Assembly: GCF_000445185.1 (NCBI RefSeq)
Contig: NZ_AVAF01000130.1
Span: 1-42,417, forward strand
Length of the DNA stretch: 42,417 nucleotides
From: Thermoanaerobacter sp. A7A
GTDB taxonomy: Bacteria > Bacillota > Thermoanaerobacteria > Thermoanaerobacterales > Thermoanaerobacteraceae
Direction of reading: 5' to 3'
The translations under genes and the position numbers were made by a program. This document shows positions 403 through 16,445 of this stretch, piece by piece (position 1 is the first letter of the stretch; every line of letters starts with the position of its first letter). The notes under the pieces are model-generated. The model ran no database searches. It saw nothing but the letters and a program-made list of their open reading frames with translations, and was not told where the DNA came from.

Positions 403-530
403 TTATTTAAATCTTCCTCTTATTGAATCTAACTTCGATACCCTTTAAATAATAAAACTGTTTTTTCTCTTAAACCATTTTTATCTATTGATAAAAAAGA
501 AACATCCGAAAATATGAATATAAAAGTAGC

Positions 531-599
531 TTTACTTTTCCTTTCCTTATCTATATAATACATGGTAAAGGAAACAATTACAAGCCGATTTGAATTGGC
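531..599. promoter_or_regulatory. Orphan copy of the cassette promoter pair and leader hairpin
   Basis: Plus strand: TTTACT (531-536), 17-bp spacer, TATAAT (554-559), then the leader hairpin GCCGATTTGAATTGGC (584-599). Minus strand: TTGTAA-N17-TATTAT overlapping the same -10. The arrangement equals that at 4454-4521 and 8120-8188. Neither the regulator ORF nor the peptide ORF remains beside it. On the plus strand it now points into the 3' end of the ABC ATPase gene (628-1305), so if active it would make an antisense transcript. The unrelated minus frame at 429-530 (about 30 codons) is not recognised. Confidence 0.65.
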
Positions 600-627
600 A
601 TGGGTATTAAAAATAACCAAAACTGTG

Positions 628-1305
628 TTACTCTTCTATCTCCACATATCCATCCTTTATTCTGAATATCCTGTCACATCTTTTTGCAATAGCTTCATTA
701 TGTGTTACAATCAATAAAGTTTTACCCTTGTCTACCAAACTTTCCAGAATGTCCATGATTTTTTCCCCGTTTTCTGCATCTAACGAACCTGTCGGTTCAT
801 CTGCAAGGATTACCTCAGGGTCATTTATTATAGCTCTTGCTATTGCCACCCTTTGCCTTTCTCCTCCTGATAAGTTCCTGACCTTTTCGTTTATTTTAAC
901 TTCCAAACCCACTTTTTCCAAAACTTCTTCAACCATTTTTCTTTTCTCCGATTTTGTTTTCTTTGTCAAAGAGTACAAAAGAGGTATTTCTATATTTTGA
1001 AATACCGTGTCTTCTTCTACCAAAAGAAATTCCTGGAATACATAACCAAAAAATTTATTTCTGAGTTTTGCCCTTTCTTTTTCCTTTAAAGTTGATGCTC
1101 TTTTCCCAGCTAAGTAAACCTCCCCTTCTGTTGCGGGAAGTAATAATCCTATTATATTAAGAAGTGTTGTTTTGCCAGAGCCTGAAGGTCCTACTATAGC
1201 AATCTTTTCTCCCGCATTTATTTCTAAGTTTACTCCCTTTAAAACCAGATTCTTCTTCTTTCCACTCATGTATTCTTTTTTTACATTTTCTGTTTTTATG
1301 AGCAT
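628..1305 (-). CDS. ABC transporter ATP-binding protein (MacB/LolD-like)
   Basis: 225 aa, full length for a stand-alone ATPase subunit that energises FtsX/MacB-type permeases. Walker A GPSGSGKT at 39-46, Q-loop Gln91, signature LSGGE at 145-149, Walker B VILADE at 165-170 followed by the usual PTGSLD, H-loop His202. It starts 2 nt after the stop of the permease at 1308, with a GGAGGG site inside the end of that gene, so it is translationally coupled. It is the last gene of an operon with two permeases and probably the secreted protein at 3615-4058. The partner permeases suggest export or self-protection against a peptide or protein rather than nutrient import; the substrate is inferred only from context. 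Confidence 0.9.
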   Translation of the reverse strand: MLIKTENVKKEYMSGKKKNLVLKGVNLEINAGEKIAIVGPSGSGKTTLLNIIGLLLPATEGEVYLAGKRASTLKEKERAKLRNKFFGYVFQEFLLVEEDTVFQNIEIPLLYSLTKKTKSEKRKMVEEVLEKVGLEVKINEKVRNLSGGERQRVAIARAIINDPEVILADEPTGSLDAENGEKIMDILESLVDKGKTLLIVTHNEAIAKRCDRIFRIKDGYVEIEE

Positions 1306-1307
1306 GC

Positions 1308-2435
1308 TTAATTATCCCTCCTTAAAAATGCTGTTAAGTCTTTTTTGTTCAATCTCCCAACAGACAAAATGGATACAAATAATATTGTTATAAAATAAAA
1401 CGTAAAGACAAACCACCATACCCACTTGGTGCTTGGCAATAAAAGCATATTAGGTATAGCTAAAAATATAGCTAATGGCAAAATGACAACTAAAACCACA
1501 AAAATAGTTATGCGCAAATATAAATCTTTTTTAGTAGCCCCGTATATTTGATGAACAACATATTCTGTAAAGTTGCGATTTATCATTATATAAAGGAAAG
1601 AAACCAATCCAACTATTATGAATATCCCCATGCTTATAAGAAAGCTTGAAAAAAATATAAAATTTATGAAATCCTCATTATAGCCCTTTTCAACTATATT
1701 TCTTAAATTCAATTTTTCAGGAATTAAAGTAATTTTTTTGGTCTTATTTGCCATTTCTACAATTTTATCAATCTCGCCTTCCTCCGATTTTGTAATATGA
1801 ATATTTTGTATTAACTCAAGAAACCCTCCTACTTGGTACAATGTTGCTACTTCTCTTGATGAAGTCAAAACAAGCACTTTGTCGTCTAAACTTCTATATC
1901 TGCCTTTATTTATATAACCCTCTCCCTTTTCTAATCTGCCATCAACCTTGTACGTTTGCCTATTAAAAATTCCCAATTTAATTTCATCTCCAATCCTGAT
2001 GCTTTTTACATCAGAACCTATAAAAACGTATGAGGGTTTTTCTGTATCTTTGTATTTATCAATTCCAAAAATTTTATCAAAATTCCCCACCCCTATAACT
2101 ATTTTTGCATCGGGATGTTCTTGTGAAAATTCTACAGTACCTGCATTTTCCATTACGGAGTACGCATTACCACTCCTATCAAAAAGATTTTCAAAAAAAT
2201 AATATATCTCCTTGTCAATAAAAGGAGGTTCCCAGTTGTTTAAGTAATCTTTAAAAAAGATTATATTGTTATTTTTTATAATCTTTAGCATCTTGCTGTA
2301 GTGACTTAACTGTACAGACTGCTCTAAAATTATAATTGTAAAAAACAAAAAAATTGTCATTTGGAAAATAAATAAAAGAATTTTCCACTTATTTTTCCTA
2401 ATATCTTTAAAAGCCAATTTAAATTGCGTAATCAT
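1308..2435 (-). CDS. FtsX-like ABC permease, second half-subunit
   Basis: About 375 aa from the ATG at 2435 (GGATGGAG upstream); an in-frame ATG three codons earlier at 2444 is possible. One N-terminal membrane segment (about 18-37), a large extracytoplasmic region, then three membrane segments (about 261-284, 309-328, 338-359). The motif IYGATKKDLYL after the second segment is the cytoplasmic coupling region typical of FtsX/MacB permeases. It overlaps the upstream permease gene by 17 nt. The two half-size permeases resemble a split version of the ~650-aa eight-segment membrane proteins that accompany lactococcin 972-type bacteriocins; that comparison is inference from architecture. Confidence 0.8.
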   Translation of the reverse strand: MITQFKLAFKDIRKNKWKILLFIFQMTIFLFFTIIILEQSVQLSHYSKMLKIIKNNNIIFFKDYLNNWEPPFIDKEIYYFFENLFDRSGNAYSVMENAGTVEFSQEHPDAKIVIGVGNFDKIFGIDKYKDTEKPSYVFIGSDVKSIRIGDEIKLGIFNRQTYKVDGRLEKGEGYINKGRYRSLDDKVLVLTSSREVATLYQVGGFLELIQNIHITKSEEGEIDKIVEMANKTKKITLIPEKLNLRNIVEKGYNEDFINFIFFSSFLISMGIFIIVGLVSFLYIMINRNFTEYVVHQIYGATKKDLYLRITIFVVLVVILPLAIFLAIPNMLLLPSTKWVWWFVFTFYFITILFVSILSVGRLNKKDLTAFLRRDN

Positions 2436-3483
2436 ATACTCCATCCTTTCGGTTTAACCTGTAGTCAACAGTTAAAAAAGCCAAAAACCATATTGCATAT
2501 CCCAACAAGACATTTGCCAATACGACAATTGATAGTGTTTTGATCGAAACATCATAAACAGTACTGGCAAAAAATAGTTTGTAAAAAATTGTGACTAGCA
2601 CAGAGCTTAAAAATAAGTACTTCAATATTTCTCTTGTATACCTTACCAAAAGCTTTACATTTGTTGCTCCAAATATTGAATGTATAATCATAACTTTTTT
2701 CTGATTACGTAAAAGTATATAATAGAAAAAATACAAATTTACGCATACGAAAATAAAGGCTATAAACACAGGCAAATAAATTTTAGAAAGCAGCATTGAA
2801 GAGATAATATTTTTAAGATTGCCCCTGTAAAACCCTTCATCAGTAATGTCATATAAATACCCGTATTTTTGCAGCATTTTTTGAATATCACTAACAATTT
2901 GATTTACTTCTTCTTTTGAATTAGAATCAAAATAATAAAAGCCAAAAATATTATTAGCCTTGCTAAAATAGTTGTATATATACTCATGAGTTTTGTCATA
3001 CAGGGGATGTCTTGAGTCGTATACTCCTAATATGTTTAGTTTTTTGCCTTCTATCATGTCTTCAATATAATTTCTACCTAATCTTTTTACATTGTAATCA
3101 TAAGAATAAGAATCTTCCTTTATGATTATGTCTTTAACAGACACAGCAGAAAACATGTCCCCTTCTTTCAATAAGTTTGACTTATAAAAGTTTATTGGAT
3201 CATATAAACCAAGTCCAACATCCTCTATGTCCCAATATACCATTACGATATTTTTATTTTTAACAATTTTATACATTTCCTCTTTGACTTTATGGGCTAT
3301 TTCAACGTCTAAGGCCAGTTGAGGGTCAAAAGGAGGAGAAATTTGAAGTTCGACAAAATTCTCACTAAGCCCCAAAGGATTTTTTAAAATCGTATCTGCT
3401 CTGAAATATGTAAACAAAGAAAAAATGATAAATGCTACAGAAAAAATAAAAGTCAGTGTGAAAAGTATAAATTTGTTTTTCAT
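2419..3483 (-). CDS. FtsX-like ABC permease, first half-subunit
   Basis: 354 aa. N-terminal membrane segment (5-26), an extracytoplasmic domain of about 200 residues, then segments at about 235-258, 286-304 and 317-338. SIFGATNVKLL at 269-279 corresponds to QIYGATKKDLY in the next gene, so the two proteins are diverged paralogues and probably form a heterodimer with the ATPase at 628-1305. It is first of the three overlapping or abutting genes. A TATAAT box and a 19-bp palindrome lie just upstream (3501-3531). A GAGAGGAG site precedes the ATG. Substrate unknown; the neighbouring secreted protein is the best candidate. Confidence 0.8.
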   Translation of the reverse strand: MKNKFILFTLTFIFSVAFIIFSLFTYFRADTILKNPLGLSENFVELQISPPFDPQLALDVEIAHKVKEEMYKIVKNKNIVMVYWDIEDVGLGLYDPINFYKSNLLKEGDMFSAVSVKDIIIKEDSYSYDYNVKRLGRNYIEDMIEGKKLNILGVYDSRHPLYDKTHEYIYNYFSKANNIFGFYYFDSNSKEEVNQIVSDIQKMLQKYGYLYDITDEGFYRGNLKNIISSMLLSKIYLPVFIAFIFVCVNLYFFYYILLRNQKKVMIIHSIFGATNVKLLVRYTREILKYLFLSSVLVTIFYKLFFASTVYDVSIKTLSIVVLANVLLGYAIWFLAFLTVDYRLNRKDGVYDYAI

Positions 3484-3614: not shown

Positions 3615-4058
3615 TTATTTACCAATTTTTATTTCAAAAACTTCCACCATTGGTGTAGATATAGTAAATGGTAAAATTCCGCTACCATATGGTACAGAGT
3701 CAAATCCATATTCAAACCGTACTTTTTCAGCAAAGGGATTTAAGGTATCATAAAAAGTAATCTCTCTACTGACGAGTTCTCCATTTAGTGACCAGTCAGT
3801 ATAACATCTACCAGTATCTTTATCTGTATTAGGAATATAATACCTTATATAGCCTCGTAATCTACTCCAACCATTATCATTATAAGCTGAGGTCAATTGA
3901 ATGTAACCAACGTATTTGTATTGATAGTACTCCGTAGACTTAACTAGATTTGGACCTGACTGATATACAATCGTAGTAATTGCCGCATATGCAGAAGTAG
4001 TAAAAGTAACTATCAAAAGAATTACAAACAGGCATGTTATTTTCTTGTTCATCACCAT
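3615..4058 (-). CDS. Secreted protein, possible bacteriocin-like product
   Basis: 147 aa. The N terminus has a clear signal peptide: MNKK, a hydrophobic core, and SAYA before a likely signal peptidase I cut, leaving a mature chain of about 120 residues rich in Tyr and aromatic residues with a single Cys. I do not recognise the family. Context (split permease pair plus ATPase directly downstream, peptide/regulator pair upstream) resembles lactococcin 972-type bacteriocin loci, but I see no convincing sequence match, so this remains a guess. AAGGAG lies 4 nt before the ATG at 4058; GTG 4055 or ATG 4052 would have more usual spacing. TATAAT is present about 15 nt further upstream. Confidence 0.75.
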   Translation of the reverse strand: MVMNKKITCLFVILLIVTFTTSAYAAITTIVYQSGPNLVKSTEYYQYKYVGYIQLTSAYNDNGWSRLRGYIRYYIPNTDKDTGRCYTDWSLNGELVSREITFYDTLNPFAEKVRFEYGFDSVPYGSGILPFTISTPMVEVFEIKIGK

Positions 4059-4285: not shown

Positions 4286-4435
4286 TTATACTGTATTATG
4301 AAAAACTATATAATGTAAGTCTATTGCATCCTCTTCTCCTAATGGTACTACCCCTCTATCTCCTAAGGAACTCAAGAAACAAGATGTAAATAAGATATTA
4401 ACAATAAAGAAAATAACCAGCAATTTCTTCTTCAT
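4286..4435 (-). CDS. Small secreted peptide, candidate pheromone precursor
   Basis: 49 codons, divergent from the RRNPP-like regulator. It starts MKKKLLVIFFIVNILFTSC, a signal peptide with a weak lipobox-like FTSC, followed by a short polar tail containing GEEDAIDLHYIVFHNTV. An AGGTGA site sits 7 nt before the ATG and a promoter TTGAAT-N16-TATTAT lies upstream. Two degenerate relatives occur in the window (103-129 and 7955-8102), both retaining the D-A-I core near the C terminus, which shows selection on this ORF. RRNPP regulators commonly sense a processed C-terminal fragment of such a divergently encoded exported peptide; the assignment follows from that layout. It was found by reading the sequence because it is short. 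Confidence 0.7.
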   Translation of the reverse strand: MKKKLLVIFFIVNILFTSCFLSSLGDRGVVPLGEEDAIDLHYIVFHNTV

Positions 4436-4453
4436 TCCATCTTCACCTGCCCT

Positions 4454-4521
4454 TTACATTTCCTTCTTTTAACTATATAATAGATAATAACCAACATAAT
4501 TTCAAGCCGATTTGAATCGGC
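4454..4521. promoter_or_regulatory. Overlapping divergent promoters and leader hairpin of the cassette
   Basis: Plus strand: TTTACA (4454-4459), 17-bp spacer, TATAAT (4477-4482), driving the regulator. Minus strand: TTGAAT (complement of 4500-4505), 16-bp spacer, TATTAT (complement of 4478-4483), driving the peptide. The two -10 boxes overlap, so the promoters should compete. GCCGATTTGAATCGGC (4506-4521) is a 7-bp-arm hairpin placed right before the regulator ribosome binding site GGGGTG; it could act as an operator or as a translational control hairpin. Copies at 584-599 and 8172-8188 keep the pairing despite base changes, which favours an RNA role. Confidence 0.7.
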
Positions 4522-4536
4522 ATGGGGTGTTAAAAA

Positions 4537-5502
4537 ATGGATGGGTTTTATTATGATTTAGAAGCTTTTGGTGAGGAACTTAAAAATATCCGCAAATCTC
4601 TAGGTCTTTCTCAAATCGATGTTTCTAAGCATGGCTTTATTAATAGAGATACTCTTAGAAAAATTGAAAACGGTAAGGTTCTACCCAAACAGGAAACTTT
4701 AGAATTATTATCACACCTTTATAAAAAAGATTTAAATGAGTTGCTCTTGAAATACAGATTAAAAGATTTTCCTACTTTCTTTGACATAAAATGCTCTCTT
4801 GAAAATAAGCTTGAAAGCGGAAATTTTGAGAGCTTGAAAGAAGATGTTGATAGGTTAAAGAAACTACTTGAAAAAGGCAATATGAGTTTATATTACTCTA
4901 AATTATTAAATCAACTTTTACTCCTTGCTGAATCTGTTTTTGAAAAAACAATTAACAAAGATCATGAAAAAGCCATGGAAAAACTTCAAAAAGCAATGGA
5001 AGTTACTATTCCTAATTTTTCTCTTTCTAATTATACCGATTTTGTCTACAGTGACATGGAAATTAGAATTTTAATGAATATGTCTTTAATTATCAAAAAA
5101 ACAGAGAATGTGCAAAAAAGCCTTGAAATGCTTTTATTCTGCTTAGAAAATTTATCTCCAGAAGAATGGGAAACAAAAATAAAAATTTATTACAACATAT
5201 CTTACAATTACCATATTCTTTCTCTTTACAAAGAATCTTTACATTATTCAAATCTAGGCATAGAAACCTGTATAAAAAATAACACTTTAAGTGGCTTGGG
5301 GCTTTTATACTTTAGAAAAGCAATTGCAGAGTACAATCTTGGCAAAGAAGAATACAAAGACTTTCTGGTTAAATCTATACATTTATTTGAAATGACTGGT
5401 CAGGAAAAACTTATAGAAACAACTATAGAGTCGTGCAGGAAATTTTATAATTTAGAAATTTCTAAGGAAAATAACATGCTTGTAATAAAAAGTCGTGAAT
5501 GA
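4537..5502 (+). CDS. XRE-family regulator with TPR-like domain (RRNPP type)
   Basis: 321 aa. Residues about 10-65 form a helix-turn-helix (LKNIRKSLGLSQIDVSKHG, NRDTLRKIENGKVLPKQET). The rest (about 75-310) is all-helical with TPR-like repeats such as KIYYNISYNYHILSLYKESL and LLYFRKAIAEYNLGK. This HTH-plus-TPR layout is that of peptide-sensing RRNPP regulators (PlcR, Rgg, PrgX and relatives), cytoplasmic DNA-binding proteins that respond to imported peptides. The divergent small secreted peptide supports this. The ATG at 4537 follows GGGGTG. Likely targets, by proximity, are the secreted-protein/permease operon on one side and the exporter operon on the other. An intrinsic terminator follows. 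Confidence 0.85.
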   Translation: MDGFYYDLEAFGEELKNIRKSLGLSQIDVSKHGFINRDTLRKIENGKVLPKQETLELLSHLYKKDLNELLLKYRLKDFPTFFDIKCSLENKLESGNFESLKEDVDRLKKLLEKGNMSLYYSKLLNQLLLLAESVFEKTINKDHEKAMEKLQKAMEVTIPNFSLSNYTDFVYSDMEIRILMNMSLIIKKTENVQKSLEMLLFCLENLSPEEWETKIKIYYNISYNYHILSLYKESLHYSNLGIETCIKNNTLSGLGLLYFRKAIAEYNLGKEEYKDFLVKSIHLFEMTGQEKLIETTIESCRKFYNLEISKENNMLVIKSRE

Positions 5503-5708: not shown

Positions 5709-7439
5709 TCATACAGCTTCTTCTATGGTCTCCATTTCCTCTTTTTCATCAATCCCATAATTATACATATAATAGAAATATCCTCTCTTTTCTAATAGCT
5801 CATCTAATGTACCTCTTTCAATGATTTCTCCATCTTTCATCACAAATATTTCATCATACCTTTTCAGTATATCCGGGTCTAATTTATGGGTTACAGCAAG
5901 TACTGTCGCATCTAAATTTATAAGCGTCCTCTCTATATCACTCGCGGTAACTTTGTCTAAAGCTACTGTAGCCTCATCTATGAGCAATAGTTCCGCTTTT
6001 TTGATAAGAGCTCTTGCAATAGCTATTCTCTGCATCTCCCCTCCGGATAATTCTACTTCGCCTTCACCTATTACTGTATTAAGTCCATTTAGAAGTTTTT
6101 CAACAACCTGAACTAGACCAGATTGTCTTAATGCCTCATTTAGCTCTTCCTCCGTACAGTCGCTGTACAGGCAAATATTATTCCTTAATGTGTCTTTAAA
6201 CATAAAAACCTTTTGCTGTATAATACTAACTTTTTTGTAATAAGAGGCCGGGTCAAAGGACCTTATATCTACTCCGTCAATAAGTACTTGCCCCTCATAA
6301 TCAGTAATGTGGTTTAATAAGACTTTTAGTAAAGTAGTTTTCCCACATCCGCTTTCTCCAACTAGAGTGTACTTTTTCCCTTTATCTAATTTGATATTTA
6401 TGTTTGATAGAGCATTCCTCTTTCCATCATAAGAATAGGTTAAGCTTTTAATTTCTATGGAATTTTTGAATTCAAACTGCTTATCCCCTTGTGAAATTTC
6501 CTCTTTGCTGGCATCTATTATTTCTTTTTGAATCTTATCTGCTATTTTTTCAACAGACTTTATTTTTGTTGCATATACAGATGCGGAAATCAAAGGATTT
6601 ACTATATAGTTCATAAGCTGTACAGCAGCAATCATAGAACCTACTGTTATGTAACCTTTTATGACTAAATAGGTCGCTAGAAGAATATTCACAAAAAACA
6701 TTGCAAATCCTGAAACAATAGACAATGCCCCTTGAAATCCTTGAAATGCATCAGATTTATACCCTGCCATTTCTGCTTCTTTGTTATCTTTTGATGCCAT
6801 ATCGAGTATTTTACCCTCTATGTTGAAGGCTTTTATTACTTCAAATCCTTGAGCCATCTCTTTTATCCTGTTGGTGAATCTCTCAAGTTTTTTGAGGTAC
6901 TCTGCTTTTAGCTCTTGATTTATCTTTGTGAAAAGTTGAGGTATAATCACTGGAACCCATCCAAAAATAAAAATGATTATAGTGAGATAAACGTTTATAC
7001 GCAATAATAGATATAAAGACACGACAAATAGCAAAATATCCTCCATAATGCTAATCAAACTTGTGAGATAATTATTCTCTATCATTCTCACGTCATTGCT
7101 AAGCAAGGATATTAATTCAGAACTTGTAATTTTTCCCCTTCTCTTGGAATTGATAAAGCTTTCTATAATGGATTGTTTGTAGTCTATCATCACTTTTTTG
7201 TTAAAAGCTGCAGAAGCTGCTTTTGATAAGGTCTCAGCCGTAAATACAGCTACCAAAAACCCCACCGAATACCATATTAATGTAGAAATGCTGTAACTTA
7301 AATTTCCAACGGAAGTATCAACAATTGTTTTAAAAAGTATTGCCTGCAAGGCTTTAAGGGCTGATACAAAAATTACAAGTACAGCGTTTACTAGAATCAA
7401 AAATTTGTACTTTAAGATATACTTCTTTATCGTCTTCAT
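5709..7439 (-). CDS. Type-1 ABC exporter, fused membrane and ATPase domains
   Basis: 576 aa, typical half-transporter that works as a dimer. Six-helix membrane domain in residues 1-310; nucleotide-binding domain about 325-555 with Walker A GESGCGKT (361-368), Q-loop Gln409, signature LSGGE (464-468), Walker B LLLIDE (484-489) and H-loop His518. There is no N-terminal C39 peptidase domain, so it would not cut a double-glycine leader itself. AAGGAGG lies 8 nt before the ATG. Upstream on the same strand is a 26-aa ORF (7762-7842) with a strong ribosome binding site, which makes peptide export a reasonable guess. It could also be a multidrug-type exporter. Confidence 0.88.
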   Translation of the reverse strand: MKTIKKYILKYKFLILVNAVLVIFVSALKALQAILFKTIVDTSVGNLSYSISTLIWYSVGFLVAVFTAETLSKAASAAFNKKVMIDYKQSIIESFINSKRRGKITSSELISLLSNDVRMIENNYLTSLISIMEDILLFVVSLYLLLRINVYLTIIIFIFGWVPVIIPQLFTKINQELKAEYLKKLERFTNRIKEMAQGFEVIKAFNIEGKILDMASKDNKEAEMAGYKSDAFQGFQGALSIVSGFAMFFVNILLATYLVIKGYITVGSMIAAVQLMNYIVNPLISASVYATKIKSVEKIADKIQKEIIDASKEEISQGDKQFEFKNSIEIKSLTYSYDGKRNALSNINIKLDKGKKYTLVGESGCGKTTLLKVLLNHITDYEGQVLIDGVDIRSFDPASYYKKVSIIQQKVFMFKDTLRNNICLYSDCTEEELNEALRQSGLVQVVEKLLNGLNTVIGEGEVELSGGEMQRIAIARALIKKAELLLIDEATVALDKVTASDIERTLINLDATVLAVTHKLDPDILKRYDEIFVMKDGEIIERGTLDELLEKRGYFYYMYNYGIDEKEEMETIEEAV

Positions 7440-7761: not shown

Positions 7762-7842
7762 TTACTTGTCTATTACCCCACATTCGAAAAATCCAAGGCA
7801 CCATCCCATCGGGGTAACAGAAGAAAATGTTATCTTCTGCAT
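7762..7842 (-). CDS. 26-aa peptide, candidate exported or modified peptide precursor
   Basis: 27 codons including stop, preceded by AGGAGGAGGTG at ideal spacing, the strongest ribosome binding site in the accessory zone. The peptide starts MQKITFSSVT and ends PMGWCLGFFECGVIDK: two Cys six residues apart in an aromatic, Gly-rich core. There is no signal peptide and no double-glycine leader. The next gene on the strand is an ABC exporter (5709-7439). This suggests a small ribosomal peptide (bacteriocin-like, or a signal) exported by that transporter; a regulatory leader peptide is the alternative. No modification enzyme is seen nearby. Family not recognised. Confidence 0.5.
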   Translation of the reverse strand: MQKITFSSVTPMGWCLGFFECGVIDK

Positions 7843-7954: not shown

Positions 7955-8102
7955 TTACTTATCTACAACTACAGAATGATAATATATCGCATCCTTTTCT
8001 CCACATGGTCCCATACTTCCATCATTTCCTAGCACACTAATACACCATGAATATACTAAAAGAGTAACTATAGAAAAAATAACTAATAATTTTTCTCCTC
8101 AT
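7955..8102 (-). pseudogene. Frameshifted copy of the secreted-peptide gene
   Basis: The ATG at 8102 with a GGGGAGGT site opens MRRK, then a run of five A bases puts the frame off by one and it stops after 21 codons. Removing one A restores a 48-residue peptide of the same design as 4286-4435: MRRKLLVIFSIVTLLVYSWC followed by a tail with GEKDAIYYHSVVVDK. Length (147 nt plus 1), layout and the D-A-I core all match. The partner regulator at 8204 is also broken, so decay is the simplest reading; slippage on the A-run or a sequencing error are alternatives. Confidence 0.7.
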
Positions 8103-8119
8103 ACCTCCCCTTGCCTCCC

Positions 8120-8188
8120 TTTACTTTTCCTTTTCTTACCTATATAATATATGGTAAGTTAAACAATTTCAACCCGAATTGATTCTGG
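8120..8188. promoter_or_regulatory. Third copy of the cassette promoter pair and leader hairpin
   Basis: Plus strand: TTTACT (8120-8125), 17 bp, TATAAT (8143-8148). Minus strand: TTGAAA-N17-TATTAT with overlapping -10. The leader hairpin here is CCCGAAT-TG-ATTC(T)GGG (8172-8188): the arm bases differ from GCCGATT/AATCGGC of the intact copy, but both arms have changed so that pairing is kept, apart from a one-base bulge. GGTGGTG, the regulator ribosome binding site, follows directly. Confidence 0.65.
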
Positions 8189-8203
8189 GTGGTGTGTTAA
8201 AAA

Positions 8204-8395
8204 ATGGATGGATTTTATTACGATTTAGAAGCTTTTAGCAATGAACTAAGGGATAATAGTTTCAGGGCCAGTAAAATTAACTATTATAGGACTGAAAAAG
8301 GGCTGTTTAAAATAAATTGTCTGAAAATTCAAACTTTATTTGAATGTGAATATAAATATGTTCATTTTTTACATGATATAAAAGGCTGTCTATAG
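8204..8395 (+). pseudogene. Truncated, degenerate RRNPP-like regulator
   Basis: Starts MDGFYYDLEAF exactly like the intact regulator at 4537 and keeps four more similar residues (..NEL). It then departs into unrelated sequence and ends at 63 codons, where the intact protein has 321. The recognition helix and all TPR repeats are lost. Promoter, leader hairpin and ribosome binding site are still well preserved, so the loss is probably fairly recent. Confidence 0.75.
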
Positions 8396-13002: not shown

Positions 13003-15636
13003 TTATTTATTATCGTATTTTATTGCCGCCTGAGCAGCAGCCAGTCTTGCAATAGGTACTCTGTAAGGTGAAGCAGAAACATAATCAAGACCTACTTTGT
13101 GGCAGAACTCAATAGAAGATGGGTCTCCACCGTGTTCACCACATATACCTACTTCAAGGTCAGGTCTTGTCTGCCTTCCAAGCTTAGTACCCATTTCTAC
13201 TAACTTGCCAACACCCTCTTGGTCAAGCTTAGCAAATGGATCAAATTCATATATCTTCTTTTCATAATAAGTTTCAAGGAATTTGCCAGCATCATCCCTT
13301 GAGAAACCGAAAGTCATCTGAGTCAAGTCATTAGTACCAAAGGAGAAGAATTCTGCTTCCTTAGCAATTTGGTCAGCTGTAAGAGCTGCTCTTGGTACCT
13401 CTATCATTGTTCCTACAAGATATTTTATTTCAACATTGTTTTGTTTTATAACTTCGTCAGCTACTTTTACTATTATGTCTTTGAGGTATTTAAGCTCTTT
13501 AAGTTCACCTACAAGTGGTATCATAATCTGTGGTTTTACGTCATGCCCTGTTCTCTTCTTTACGTTTATAGCAGCCTCTATAATAGCTCTTGTCTGCATT
13601 TCAGCAATTTCTGGATAGGTTATAGCTAATCTACAGCCTCTATGACCTAACATTGGGTTAAACTCTTTTAAGCTTTCTACTGTTGCTTTTAACTCTTCAA
13701 AAGTTATCCCCATGTTTTCTGCAAGTTCTTTAATTTCTTCATCTGTATGAGGTAAGAATTCATGCAATGGTGGATCTAAAAGGCGTATAGTAACAGGGAA
13801 TTCACCCATAACCTCAAACAAACCTTCAAAGTCTGACCTTTGCATAGGCAATAGTTTTTCTAAAGCTTTTCTTCTTTGTTCTTCTGTCTTTGAGACAATC
13901 ATTTCTCTCATAGCAGGAATTCTATCTTCGTCAAAGAACATATGCTCTGTCCTGCAAAGGCCTATTCCTTCAGCACCAAACTGAACTGCAACTTTTGCAT
14001 CTCTTGGTATATCTGCATTAGTTTTTACTTTTAATTTTCTATATTTATCTGCCCAGCTCATGAGAGTTGCAAAATCTCCAGTTAACTCAGGTGTAACAGT
14101 CTTTATTTCACCAATGTACACATTACCTGTGCTACCATCTATAGATATGTAGTCTCCCTCATGAACTTCTATATCGCCAATTCTCATTACTTTTGCTTGC
14201 TCGTCTATCTTTGCATCGCCACAACCTACTACGCAAGCTGTACCCATACCTCTTGCCACAACAGCTGCATGAGATGTCATACCGCCACGAGTTGTAAGTA
14301 TTCCTTGTGCTACAGACATACCTTCAATGTCGTCTGGAGATGTCTCTGTTCTTACAAGAATTACTTTTTCTCCCCTTGATTTTGCAGCTTCTATTGCCTC
14401 ATCAGCAGTAAAGTATACTTTTCCTGATGCAGCACCAGGAGAAGCGGGTAAACCTTTTGCAACAGGCTTAGCAGCTTTCAACGCATTTGGCTCAAAGGTT
14501 GGATGCAATAACTGGTCTAACTGTTTCGGGTCTACTCTTAAGACTGCTGTCTTTTCATCTATTAAGCCTTCAGCCACTAAGTCTACAGCTACTTTCAAAG
14601 CTGCTTGAGCAGTTCTCTTTCCGTTTCTTGTCTGTAGCATGTAGAGTTTACCTCTTTCAATAGTAAACTCTATATCCTGCATGTCTTTGTAGTGTTTCTC
14701 CAATTTCTCAGCAATTTCTACGAATTGGTTATAAACTTCTGGCATAGTCTCCTTCAAACTTGAAATTGGCTGAGGCGTTCTAATACCTGCAACAACATCT
14801 TCACCTTGAGCATTCATCAAGAATTCGCCAAATAAAGCTTTTTCACCAGTTGCAGGATTTCTAGTGAAAGCAACACCTGTACCTGAATCATTGCCCATGT
14901 TGCCAAATACCATTGATTGAACATTTACTGCTGTACCCCAATCACTTGGTATGTCGTTAAGTCTTCTGTACACTATAGCCCTTGGATTATCCCAAGACCT
15001 AAATACCGCTTTTACAGCTTCTAGAAGTTGTTCTTTTGGATCTTGTGGGAAGTCTACTCCCATTTCTTTCTTATAAAGTTCTTTAAATCTTTTTACTACC
15101 TCTTTGAGGTTTTCAGCTGTTAAATCTGTATCAAATTTTGCACCATTTTCCTCTTTTACTTCATCTAAAATAGCTTCAAATTTATTCTTGTCAATTCCCA
15201 TTACAACATCTGAGAACATTTGAATAAATCTTCTATAGCTGTCATAGGCAAATCTTTCATTGTTTGTAGCTTTAGCAAGGCCTTCTACTGTCTCGTCGTT
15301 TAAACCAAGGTTTAAAATAGTATCCATCATACCTGGCATTGAAACTCTCGCGCCAGACCTTACAGATACTAATAAAGGATTTGTTGGGTCTCCAAATTTT
15401 TTACCTGTAATTTCTTCTAATTTAGCCATATATTCATAGATTTGTTCAACAATTTCTGGAGCTATAGTCTTACCATCTTGATAGTACCTTGTACAAGCCT
15501 CAGTGGTGACTGTAAATCCTTGGGGAACAGGTAAACCCAACTTCGTCATTTCAGCAAGATTTGCGCCTTTTCCTCCTAAGAGGTCTCTCATTGAAGCATC
15601 GCCTTCACTAAATAAATACACATACTTTTTACTCAT
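13003..15636 (-). CDS. ppdK: Pyruvate, phosphate dikinase
   Basis: 877 aa, the size of clostridial PPDK. N-terminal ATP-grasp part ([37 protein letters not shown]), central phospho-His swivel domain with [19 protein letters not shown] (catalytic His near residue 455), and C-terminal PEP/pyruvate TIM barrel ([37 protein letters not shown]). It interconverts pyruvate, ATP and phosphate with PEP, AMP and pyrophosphate in glycolysis or gluconeogenesis. Its start overlaps the stop of its regulator by 4 nt. The 3' hairpin has been duplicated by the neighbouring repeat. Confidence 0.97.
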
Positions 15637-16445
15637 GAAATCTCTCCTCCTTTTAATACGTTTAATATAACATTAGCTGTTTCTTCTACAGCTTTATTTG
15701 TAACATCGATTACAGTACACCCTAATCTTTTCATCACCTCCTCAGCATATTTTATCTCTTTTTTAACTCTTTCTTCAGTAGCGTATATAGCATTAGCATC
15801 AAGGCCAAGAGATTTTAATCTCTCTTTCCTTATTTTTACCAAAACTTCAGGGTCTATAGTCAACCCAAATATTTTTTTAGAGTTGATTTCAAATAATTCT
15901 TGAGGTGGTTCAATTTCTGGCACTAAAGGTAAATTAGCAGCTTTTATGTATTTATGAGCAAGGTACATGCACAAAGGTGTTTTGGATGTTCTAGAAACCC
16001 CTATAACAACTACATCTGCCAATAGTATACCCATTGCATCTTTACCATCATCATATTTTACGGCAAATTCTATTACTTCGATTTTTTTCAAATAATCTTC
16101 TTTATTATTTTTTGCTAAATTGGTATGGGGGGATATACCAGTACTATCTTCAATAGCATTTATCACTGGTCCCATTATATCTACTATTTTTATGCCAAAT
16201 TTCTGTGCTTTTTTAAGAAGATAATCTTTTAATTCCGGGACCACCATAGTATGGATTATTATGCTATTTGCATCATTAGCTGCTTCCATAATAATTTCTT
16301 CTATTTGATTTTTATCACCTACATACGGATATTTTTTTATTTTTTCTATAAAAGTATCAAAGTGGGCAGCAGCAATACTCGCAATGTTTTCTGCTGTATC
16401 TACATTAGAATCTGAAACCAAGTAAATTGATACTCCTTCTTCCAT
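15633..16445 (-). CDS. ppsR: Pyruvate, phosphate dikinase regulatory protein (DUF299 kinase/phosphorylase)
   Basis: 270 aa, standard length. Contains the DUF299 nucleotide-binding loop [15 protein letters not shown] and the N-terminal [16 protein letters not shown]. Family members phosphorylate (ADP-dependent) and dephosphorylate a Thr next to the catalytic His of PPDK, switching it off and on. The gene is translationally coupled to ppdK (4-nt overlap), which makes PPDK rather than PEP synthase the partner. GGGGGATT precedes the ATG. Confidence 0.94.

Follow-up and report, generated by a model that had tools for sequence, protein, structure and literature searches.

Several RRNPP systems resemble the locus described here. 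In the PlcR/PapR system of the Bacillus cereus group, the PapR gene begins some 70 bp downstream of plcR, and the signal corresponds to the extreme C-terminus of the peptide (PMC6753895, PMC6568020, PMC3519770). Our locus shares with this system a receptor composed of an HTH and five TPRs, matched over its full length both in profile and in fold, a presumably exported propeptide of about 45-50 aa with an acidic-hydrophobic core resembling ADLPFEF, and a palindromic operator. It differs by its peptide gene, which is divergent from the regulator gene instead of downstream in the same orientation, by the internal position of the core, by an operator that is not a PlcR box and by its presumed targets, the adjacent secreted-peptide clusters. 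PlcRa/PapRa of B. cereus also has a PlcR-type receptor, with a peptide gene upstream of the receptor gene and an internal heptapeptide, CSIPYEY, as signal; it differs in that it governs cysteine metabolism and oxidative stress and not a peptide cluster, and tandem-repeat precursors are not reported there (PMC3519770). In Streptococcus pneumoniae, TprA, an orthologue of PlcR, controls a lantibiotic cluster that lies downstream of its peptide gene, phrA (PMC6753895), but it is a repressor and the acidic-aromatic core is absent there. The streptococcal Rgg/SHP systems are described as RRNPP systems that adjoin and control radical-SAM RiPP (RaS-RiPP) clusters (PMC13361665, PMC8092268), but Rgg belongs to another five-TPR clade (PMC12700828) and SHP are exported via PptAB and not by a classical signal peptide (PMC10075063). 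Finally, the Phr propeptides of Rap phi3T and phi105 carry more than one pheromone (PMC11343458); they have two copies (phi105) and Rap receptors, whereas the PlcR-like module reaches eight copies, in relatives and not in the window (the whole stretch of 42,417 nucleotides that was analysed). Control of RiPP clusters by RRNPP systems is already known from TprA/PhrA, Rgg/SHP and the 196 candidates of RRNPP_Detector, in the main text of which Thermoanaerobacteraceae are not among the host families for RiPP-cluster candidates (PMC10075063).

Here, we propose, with a probability of about 0.78, that the locus is a PlcR-like RRNPP quorum-sensing module of divergent layout which activates adjacent secreted-peptide operons (Table 1). 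The 49-aa ORF and the 321-aa HTH-TPR regulator gene lie back-to-back exactly where the first-pass annotation had placed them. The ribosome binding site that it had assigned to the ORF is readable in the sequence (AGGTGA, 7 nt 5′ of the ATG), and so is the signal peptide, which was judged by composition from a basic N-terminus and a hydrophobic stretch. The ORF is more than a chance occurrence because its homologues keep the reading frame with low dN/dS values, 0.10-0.34 in near comparisons; at greater distance, with dS saturated, they climb to about 0.6. Judged by these substitution patterns, it is a real gene under purifying selection. Among 12 genus peptides, the signal peptide and the core are conserved and the final 6-8 residues are not; M1, K4, P31, E34, D36, I38 and H41 are invariant in the alignment, giving the core pattern P..E.D.I..H. 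The family comprises type A (VVPLGEEDAIDLHYIVFHNTV), type A′ (VVPLWEEDAIELHSYNSIGMK), type B (GPMGEKDIIDWHSVVVDK) and type C (APLGEEDLIRWHSVIPGR). A lipoprotein pheromone was ruled out, the cysteine of the would-be lipobox being unconserved and out of register between peptide groups. No tblastn match pointing to a plasmid or phage origin of the module was found in the plasmid and phage collections.

Table 1. Features of the module, of its neighbouring copies and of the adjacent genes in the window.
Feature	Positions	Strand	Basis or remarks
Regulator fragment (residues 33-63), neighbouring copy at contig edge	10-102	+	
Orphan promoter and operator remnant	530-613	+	operator 581-598
ABC ATPase	628-1305	-	best NCBIfam model TIGR03608 L_ocin_972_ABC, 244.2 bits vs cut-off 254.85
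378-aa membrane protein, putative second permease	1308-2444	-	
354-aa membrane protein, putative permease of bacteriocin-type ABC system	2419-3483	-	
147-aa exported protein, candidate bacteriocin, first gene of downstream operon	3615-4058	-	low-confidence beta model
49-aa propeptide gene	4286-4435	-	signal peptide, acidic core GEEDAIDLHYI and variable tail VFHNTV; homologues, dN/dS
Predicted core of mature signal, codons 34-41 (EEDAIDLH)	4313-4336	-	E34, D36, I38 and H41 invariant (12 genus peptides); same motif class in distant precursors
Sigma-A-type promoter, regulator gene	4453-4481	+	TTTACA-17-TATAAT, 11/12 matches; conserved in homologues
Sigma-A-type promoter, peptide gene	4477-4505	-	TTGAAA-17-TATTAT (4505-4477), 10/12 matches; spacing conserved in homologues
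Operator CAAGCCGATTTGAATCGGCATG	4503-4524	.	palindrome GCCGATT-TG-AATCGGC at 4506-4521, between the two promoters
321-aa HTH-TPR regulator, PlcR-like RRNPP receptor	4537-5502	+	Pfam, profile, AF2 model, structure alignment
Third peptide-gene copy, type B GPCGEKDAIYYHSVVVDK	7958-8107	-	frameshifted near start
Class-3 operator of third copy, CAACCCGAATTGATTCTG	8170-8187	+	
Degenerate regulator of third copy	8204-8395	+	

The regulator contains an HTH_3 domain (Pfam, 3.5e-10, above cut-off), also found in 20/20 homologues, and approaches RNPP_C with 24.3 bits against a gathering score of 26.5 (E 2.5e-5), a domain matched by 4/20 homologues at E 0.01. By profile, PlcR is its only full-length solved relative (2e-6, residues 9-299), and a profile built with 20 diverse homologues matches PlcR at 7e-10. 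The AF2 model (pLDDT 84) folds into a TPR superhelix whose top hit with Foldseek and VIA-align is PlcR; PlcR structures occupy ranks 1-3, with VIA Z values from 20 to 23, the highest spanning residues 8-303. The first-pass annotation had called the regulator RRNPP-like and would have dropped the idea had the model lacked a TPR peptide pocket; the model in fact best matches PlcR with PapR. N220 is conserved in all 30 diverse aligned homologues and aligns with Asn201 of PlcR, the groove residue that contacts PapR and holds the peptide backbone. The best reading is a PlcR-like RRNPP receptor of the five-TPR clade, and not PlcR/PapR proper, because the gene order differs and the operator sequence here (GCCGATT-TG-AATCGGC and variants) is not the PlcR box TATGNAN4TNCATA.

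We then considered the genus, represented by 10 genomes including Thermoanaerobacter and Caldanaerobacter. The peptide-family profile gave convincing matches in 9/10 of these genomes and in 0/27 genomes of other genera in the class. Regulator and peptide occur together: the nine genomes with a regulator all carry the peptide, at least one core-bearing copy being kept in each, and the single genome without the regulator also lacks the peptide. In nine of the ten genomes, peptide homologues are divergent from regulators or regulator remnants, which answers the doubt raised at first that the small ORF might not be conserved beside regulator homologues. The stronger expectation that the two always co-occur divergently stands in part, as a full-length peptide adjoins 5 of the 10 intact genus regulators and is truncated, fused, replaced or lost at the other five. 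At one locus (L055, 13654-14391, plus strand), the family signal peptide forms an in-frame fusion with a 245-aa secreted protein and a module operator precedes it, an apparent capture of promoter and signal peptide. The genome devoid of regulator and peptide (L090, L091) retains operator-like sites, one of which, together with a full promoter, precedes ABC transporter genes; these sites are possible remnants of the regulon.

Which part of the peptide would constitute the signal can be addressed by comparing its relatives. The mature signal had been derived from the tail that follows the signal peptide; it most likely does lie within this tail, but sequence comparison favours the internal core GEEDAIDLHYI over the whole 17-residue tail, because the final 6-8 residues are free to vary and because the core is the unit repeated in tandem precursors elsewhere. 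Regulators that are 92% identical are paired with peptides of wholly different tails (FHNTV vs SYNSIGMK) around a fixed core; therefore, the quorum-sensing reading fits only if the core is the signal, and the extreme C-terminal tail is disfavoured. The PhrA peptide of the TprA system differs from the peptide found here. The core resembles PapR7 (ADLPFEF; PMC6568020) and PapRa7 (CSIPYEY; PMC3519770).

Beyond the genus, the regulator profile finds homologues in other families of the phylum, at about 28-38% identity and with up to eight per genome. A divergent ORF with a ribosome binding site and a signal peptide accompanies 13/21 of these distant regulators, against 0/155 control genes of the same stretches (p ~1e-14). 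When only ATG starts are allowed, the counts are 8/21 and 1/155, the former being too low for the distant peptides since several start with GTG or TTG. The acidic-aromatic core motif occurs in 9/12 distant tails, for 2.5 expected from shuffles, as DIYEWH, DDDYEWN, DEDYEWF, DPVIEWH, EPEYEWN, DEDIEWH or EDIPRIF (EDAIDLH in the window). In four genomes outside the genus, the core is repeated inside the precursor: two of them (G045 and G328; L152, L153) have 48-bp tandem arrays encoding 6 and 8 copies of the GEEDIPRI type, with units GEEDIPRIFxxPxxPD, and the precursors of the other two (G191 and G286) hold two core copies each. This repetition is the best evidence, at the sequence level, that the core would be the signal.

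As annotated at first, the two promoters overlap at their -10 boxes, positions 4477-4481 being common to both. Promoter-like matches are not rare in this AT-rich DNA (17 found vs 11.9 expected), and both promoters are credible because they are conserved in related loci and not on account of match counts. The operator varies by locus, reading CCCGATT-TG-AATCGGG for type C and CCCGAAT-TG-ATTCTGGG for type B, against GCCGATT-TG-AATCGGC here. The differences among paralogues are symmetric compensatory double substitutions which track the peptide type; the covariation score is 0.288 vs 0.115 in shuffles, with 0/500 as high, and sliding the pairing abolishes the signal. When up to one mismatch is allowed, a genome contains 3-8 sites, the reversed control giving mostly 0. 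At distant regulators, the palindrome test is a modest positive (p 1e-4) that partly reflects the AT-rich background, which is why we rely only on the covariation within the genus. Because peptide, operator and regulator are physically linked, common descent accounts for much of the correlation between them; a strict co-adaptation of the three is therefore not claimed, and at least one combination (L051, 9882) is mismatched.

In nearly every copy, the operator adjoins the -35 box of the peptide promoter and sits within the leader of the regulator gene; here, as estimated from the promoter boxes, its centre falls at about -43.5 relative to the start point of the peptide gene and at about +25.5 relative to that of the regulator gene. 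This position suggests leftward activation and rightward autorepression, and we favour an activator of the peptide side since the predicted operator is upstream of the target -35, abutting it, and inside the regulator's own leader. The opposite wiring, in which the regulator would repress the leftward promoter and the peptide would act as an anti-repressor instead of a PlcR/PapR-like co-activator, seems unlikely to us: it is the one reported for the closest functional analogue, TprA/PhrA, where the bacteriocin cluster downstream of phrA is up 5- to 73-fold in a tprA mutant (PMC6753895), but the geometry is that of a peptide-side activator and PlcR, the nearest structural relative, is an activator.

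With activation retained, the module could operate as follows. The signal peptide would export the peptide, which would be cleaved around the conserved core EEDAIDLHYI. An oligopeptide permease may then re-import the core oligopeptide, which the regulator would bind in its TPR groove; five oligopeptide-binding (Opp-type) proteins are encoded in the genome. The regulator, probably dimeric, would bind the palindrome and activate the leftward promoter, raising the expression of the peptide gene and of the secretion/bacteriocin-type operon in a positive feedback loop. Through the same operator, it may restrain its own rightward transcription.

The presumed targets are the genes that follow the peptide gene. 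The gap between it and the 147-aa gene is 227 nt, and a search of this gap for a transcription terminator found none, which is consistent with a possible co-transcription. The 147-aa protein matches no Pfam or NCBIfam model, and no Lactococcin_972 bacteriocin domain was found in it; its identification as Lactococcin 972 was set aside, Foldseek with the pLDDT 61 model being uninformative. Among relatives, the radical-SAM/SPASM clusters that follow the module comprise small Cys-containing ORFs, S41 peptidases and exporters, and a neighbouring copy heads a radical-SAM peptide cluster both in one relative (L054) and on another contig of the same genome (C129). Elsewhere, the module stands before a YcaO thiazole/oxazole cluster or genes for secreted proteins. 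At a few loci, the target gene itself has taken the place of the peptide or is fused to it. From these gene positions, we infer that the module would control the adjacent secreted-peptide clusters.

Since the peptide gene heads bacteriocin-like or RiPP operons, its product could itself be a secreted effector, a bacteriocin or the RiPP substrate of the neighbouring clusters, and not a signal. At L056 the peptide promoter directly drives a RiPP-like ORF (32 aa, before the rSAM gene), and the L055 fusion described above points the same way. We nevertheless consider this quite improbable: the rSAM and YcaO clusters have candidate precursors of their own besides the peptide, no Cys, Ser or Thr is conserved in the genus core except a near-invariant Ser after H41, and a PlcR-like receptor partners the peptide whatever the cluster, with a core that resembles those of PapR and PapRa. 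Apart from this, Cys-rich ORFs of 62-66 aa (..GPCVCWGPYCW..CRP..) lie beside Clo7bot-like rSAM/SPASM proteins, S41 peptidases and ABC exporters in three loci (L057, L056, L050), which likely represent an uncharacterised type of RiPP cluster. In two others (L054, about 14842-14925, plus strand; L111, 4317-4406, minus strand), a 27-aa ORF, MVRKINFDPIVNPAFCGLAKICGVEIK, precedes an rSAM/SPASM protein.

Returning to the signalling module, we lean, with reserve, towards a broader view. The regulators would form a new PlcR-like receptor subfamily of Clostridia-type bacteria, thermophiles included, with one peptide code (an acidic stretch, then D-x-[IYP]-[EDR]-[WLFI]-[HFN]) and divergently encoded precursors, some with up to 8 tandem copies; the module would be a portable, duplicating switch placed before unrelated RiPP and bacteriocin clusters, its operator and peptide types diverging together. 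The novelty of this subfamily is provisional: in the literature searched, with surveys represented by their main text, we found no description of it, of a divergent layout with a co-varying operator, of the acidic-aromatic core or of six- to eight-fold pheromone repeats with a PlcR-like receptor, and the main text of these surveys does not name Thermoanaerobacter systems. If this view is correct, thermophilic anaerobes would gain a defined cell-to-cell signalling code, and a synthetic peptide would offer a handle to switch on silent RiPP and bacteriocin clusters. As both the signal and its DNA target can be predicted from sequence, through the tandem-repeat precursors and the co-varying operator classes, the specificity between receptor, signal and operator is directly testable within one family.

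The window holds two further, degraded copies of the module (10-613 and 7958-8395), which, like the operator palindrome, the first-pass annotation had missed, and many copies in the genus are degenerate or pseudogenes. It could be argued that the module now does little in this genome and is a remnant in decay, selfish or duplicated in origin, two of the three copies of the window being broken and pseudogene copies being numerous in the genus. This we regard as very improbable, given the purifying selection on the peptide in intact copies and the retention of the regulator with a core-bearing peptide in 9/10 genus genomes.

Two minor elements accompany the degraded copies. A 26-aa ORF (7762-7842, minus strand; MQKITFSSVTPMGWCLGFFECGVIDK), located between an ABC exporter gene (5709-7439) and the broken third module, has a strong ribosome binding site (AGGAGGAGGTG) and is followed by a hairpin-like stretch; it is a candidate RiPP precursor, and at L095 an ORF nearly identical to it precedes an IS1380 transposase. 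Palindromic repeat sequence (GGGACGGTTCC...GGAACCGTCCC) is also present at 130-200, beside a regulator remnant. At L056, where the regulator remnant starts at 16106, a regulator is interrupted by a comparable stretch, which reads RRDGSFYLKKSDRRNRPSC as protein; the repeat is possibly a MITE-like element.
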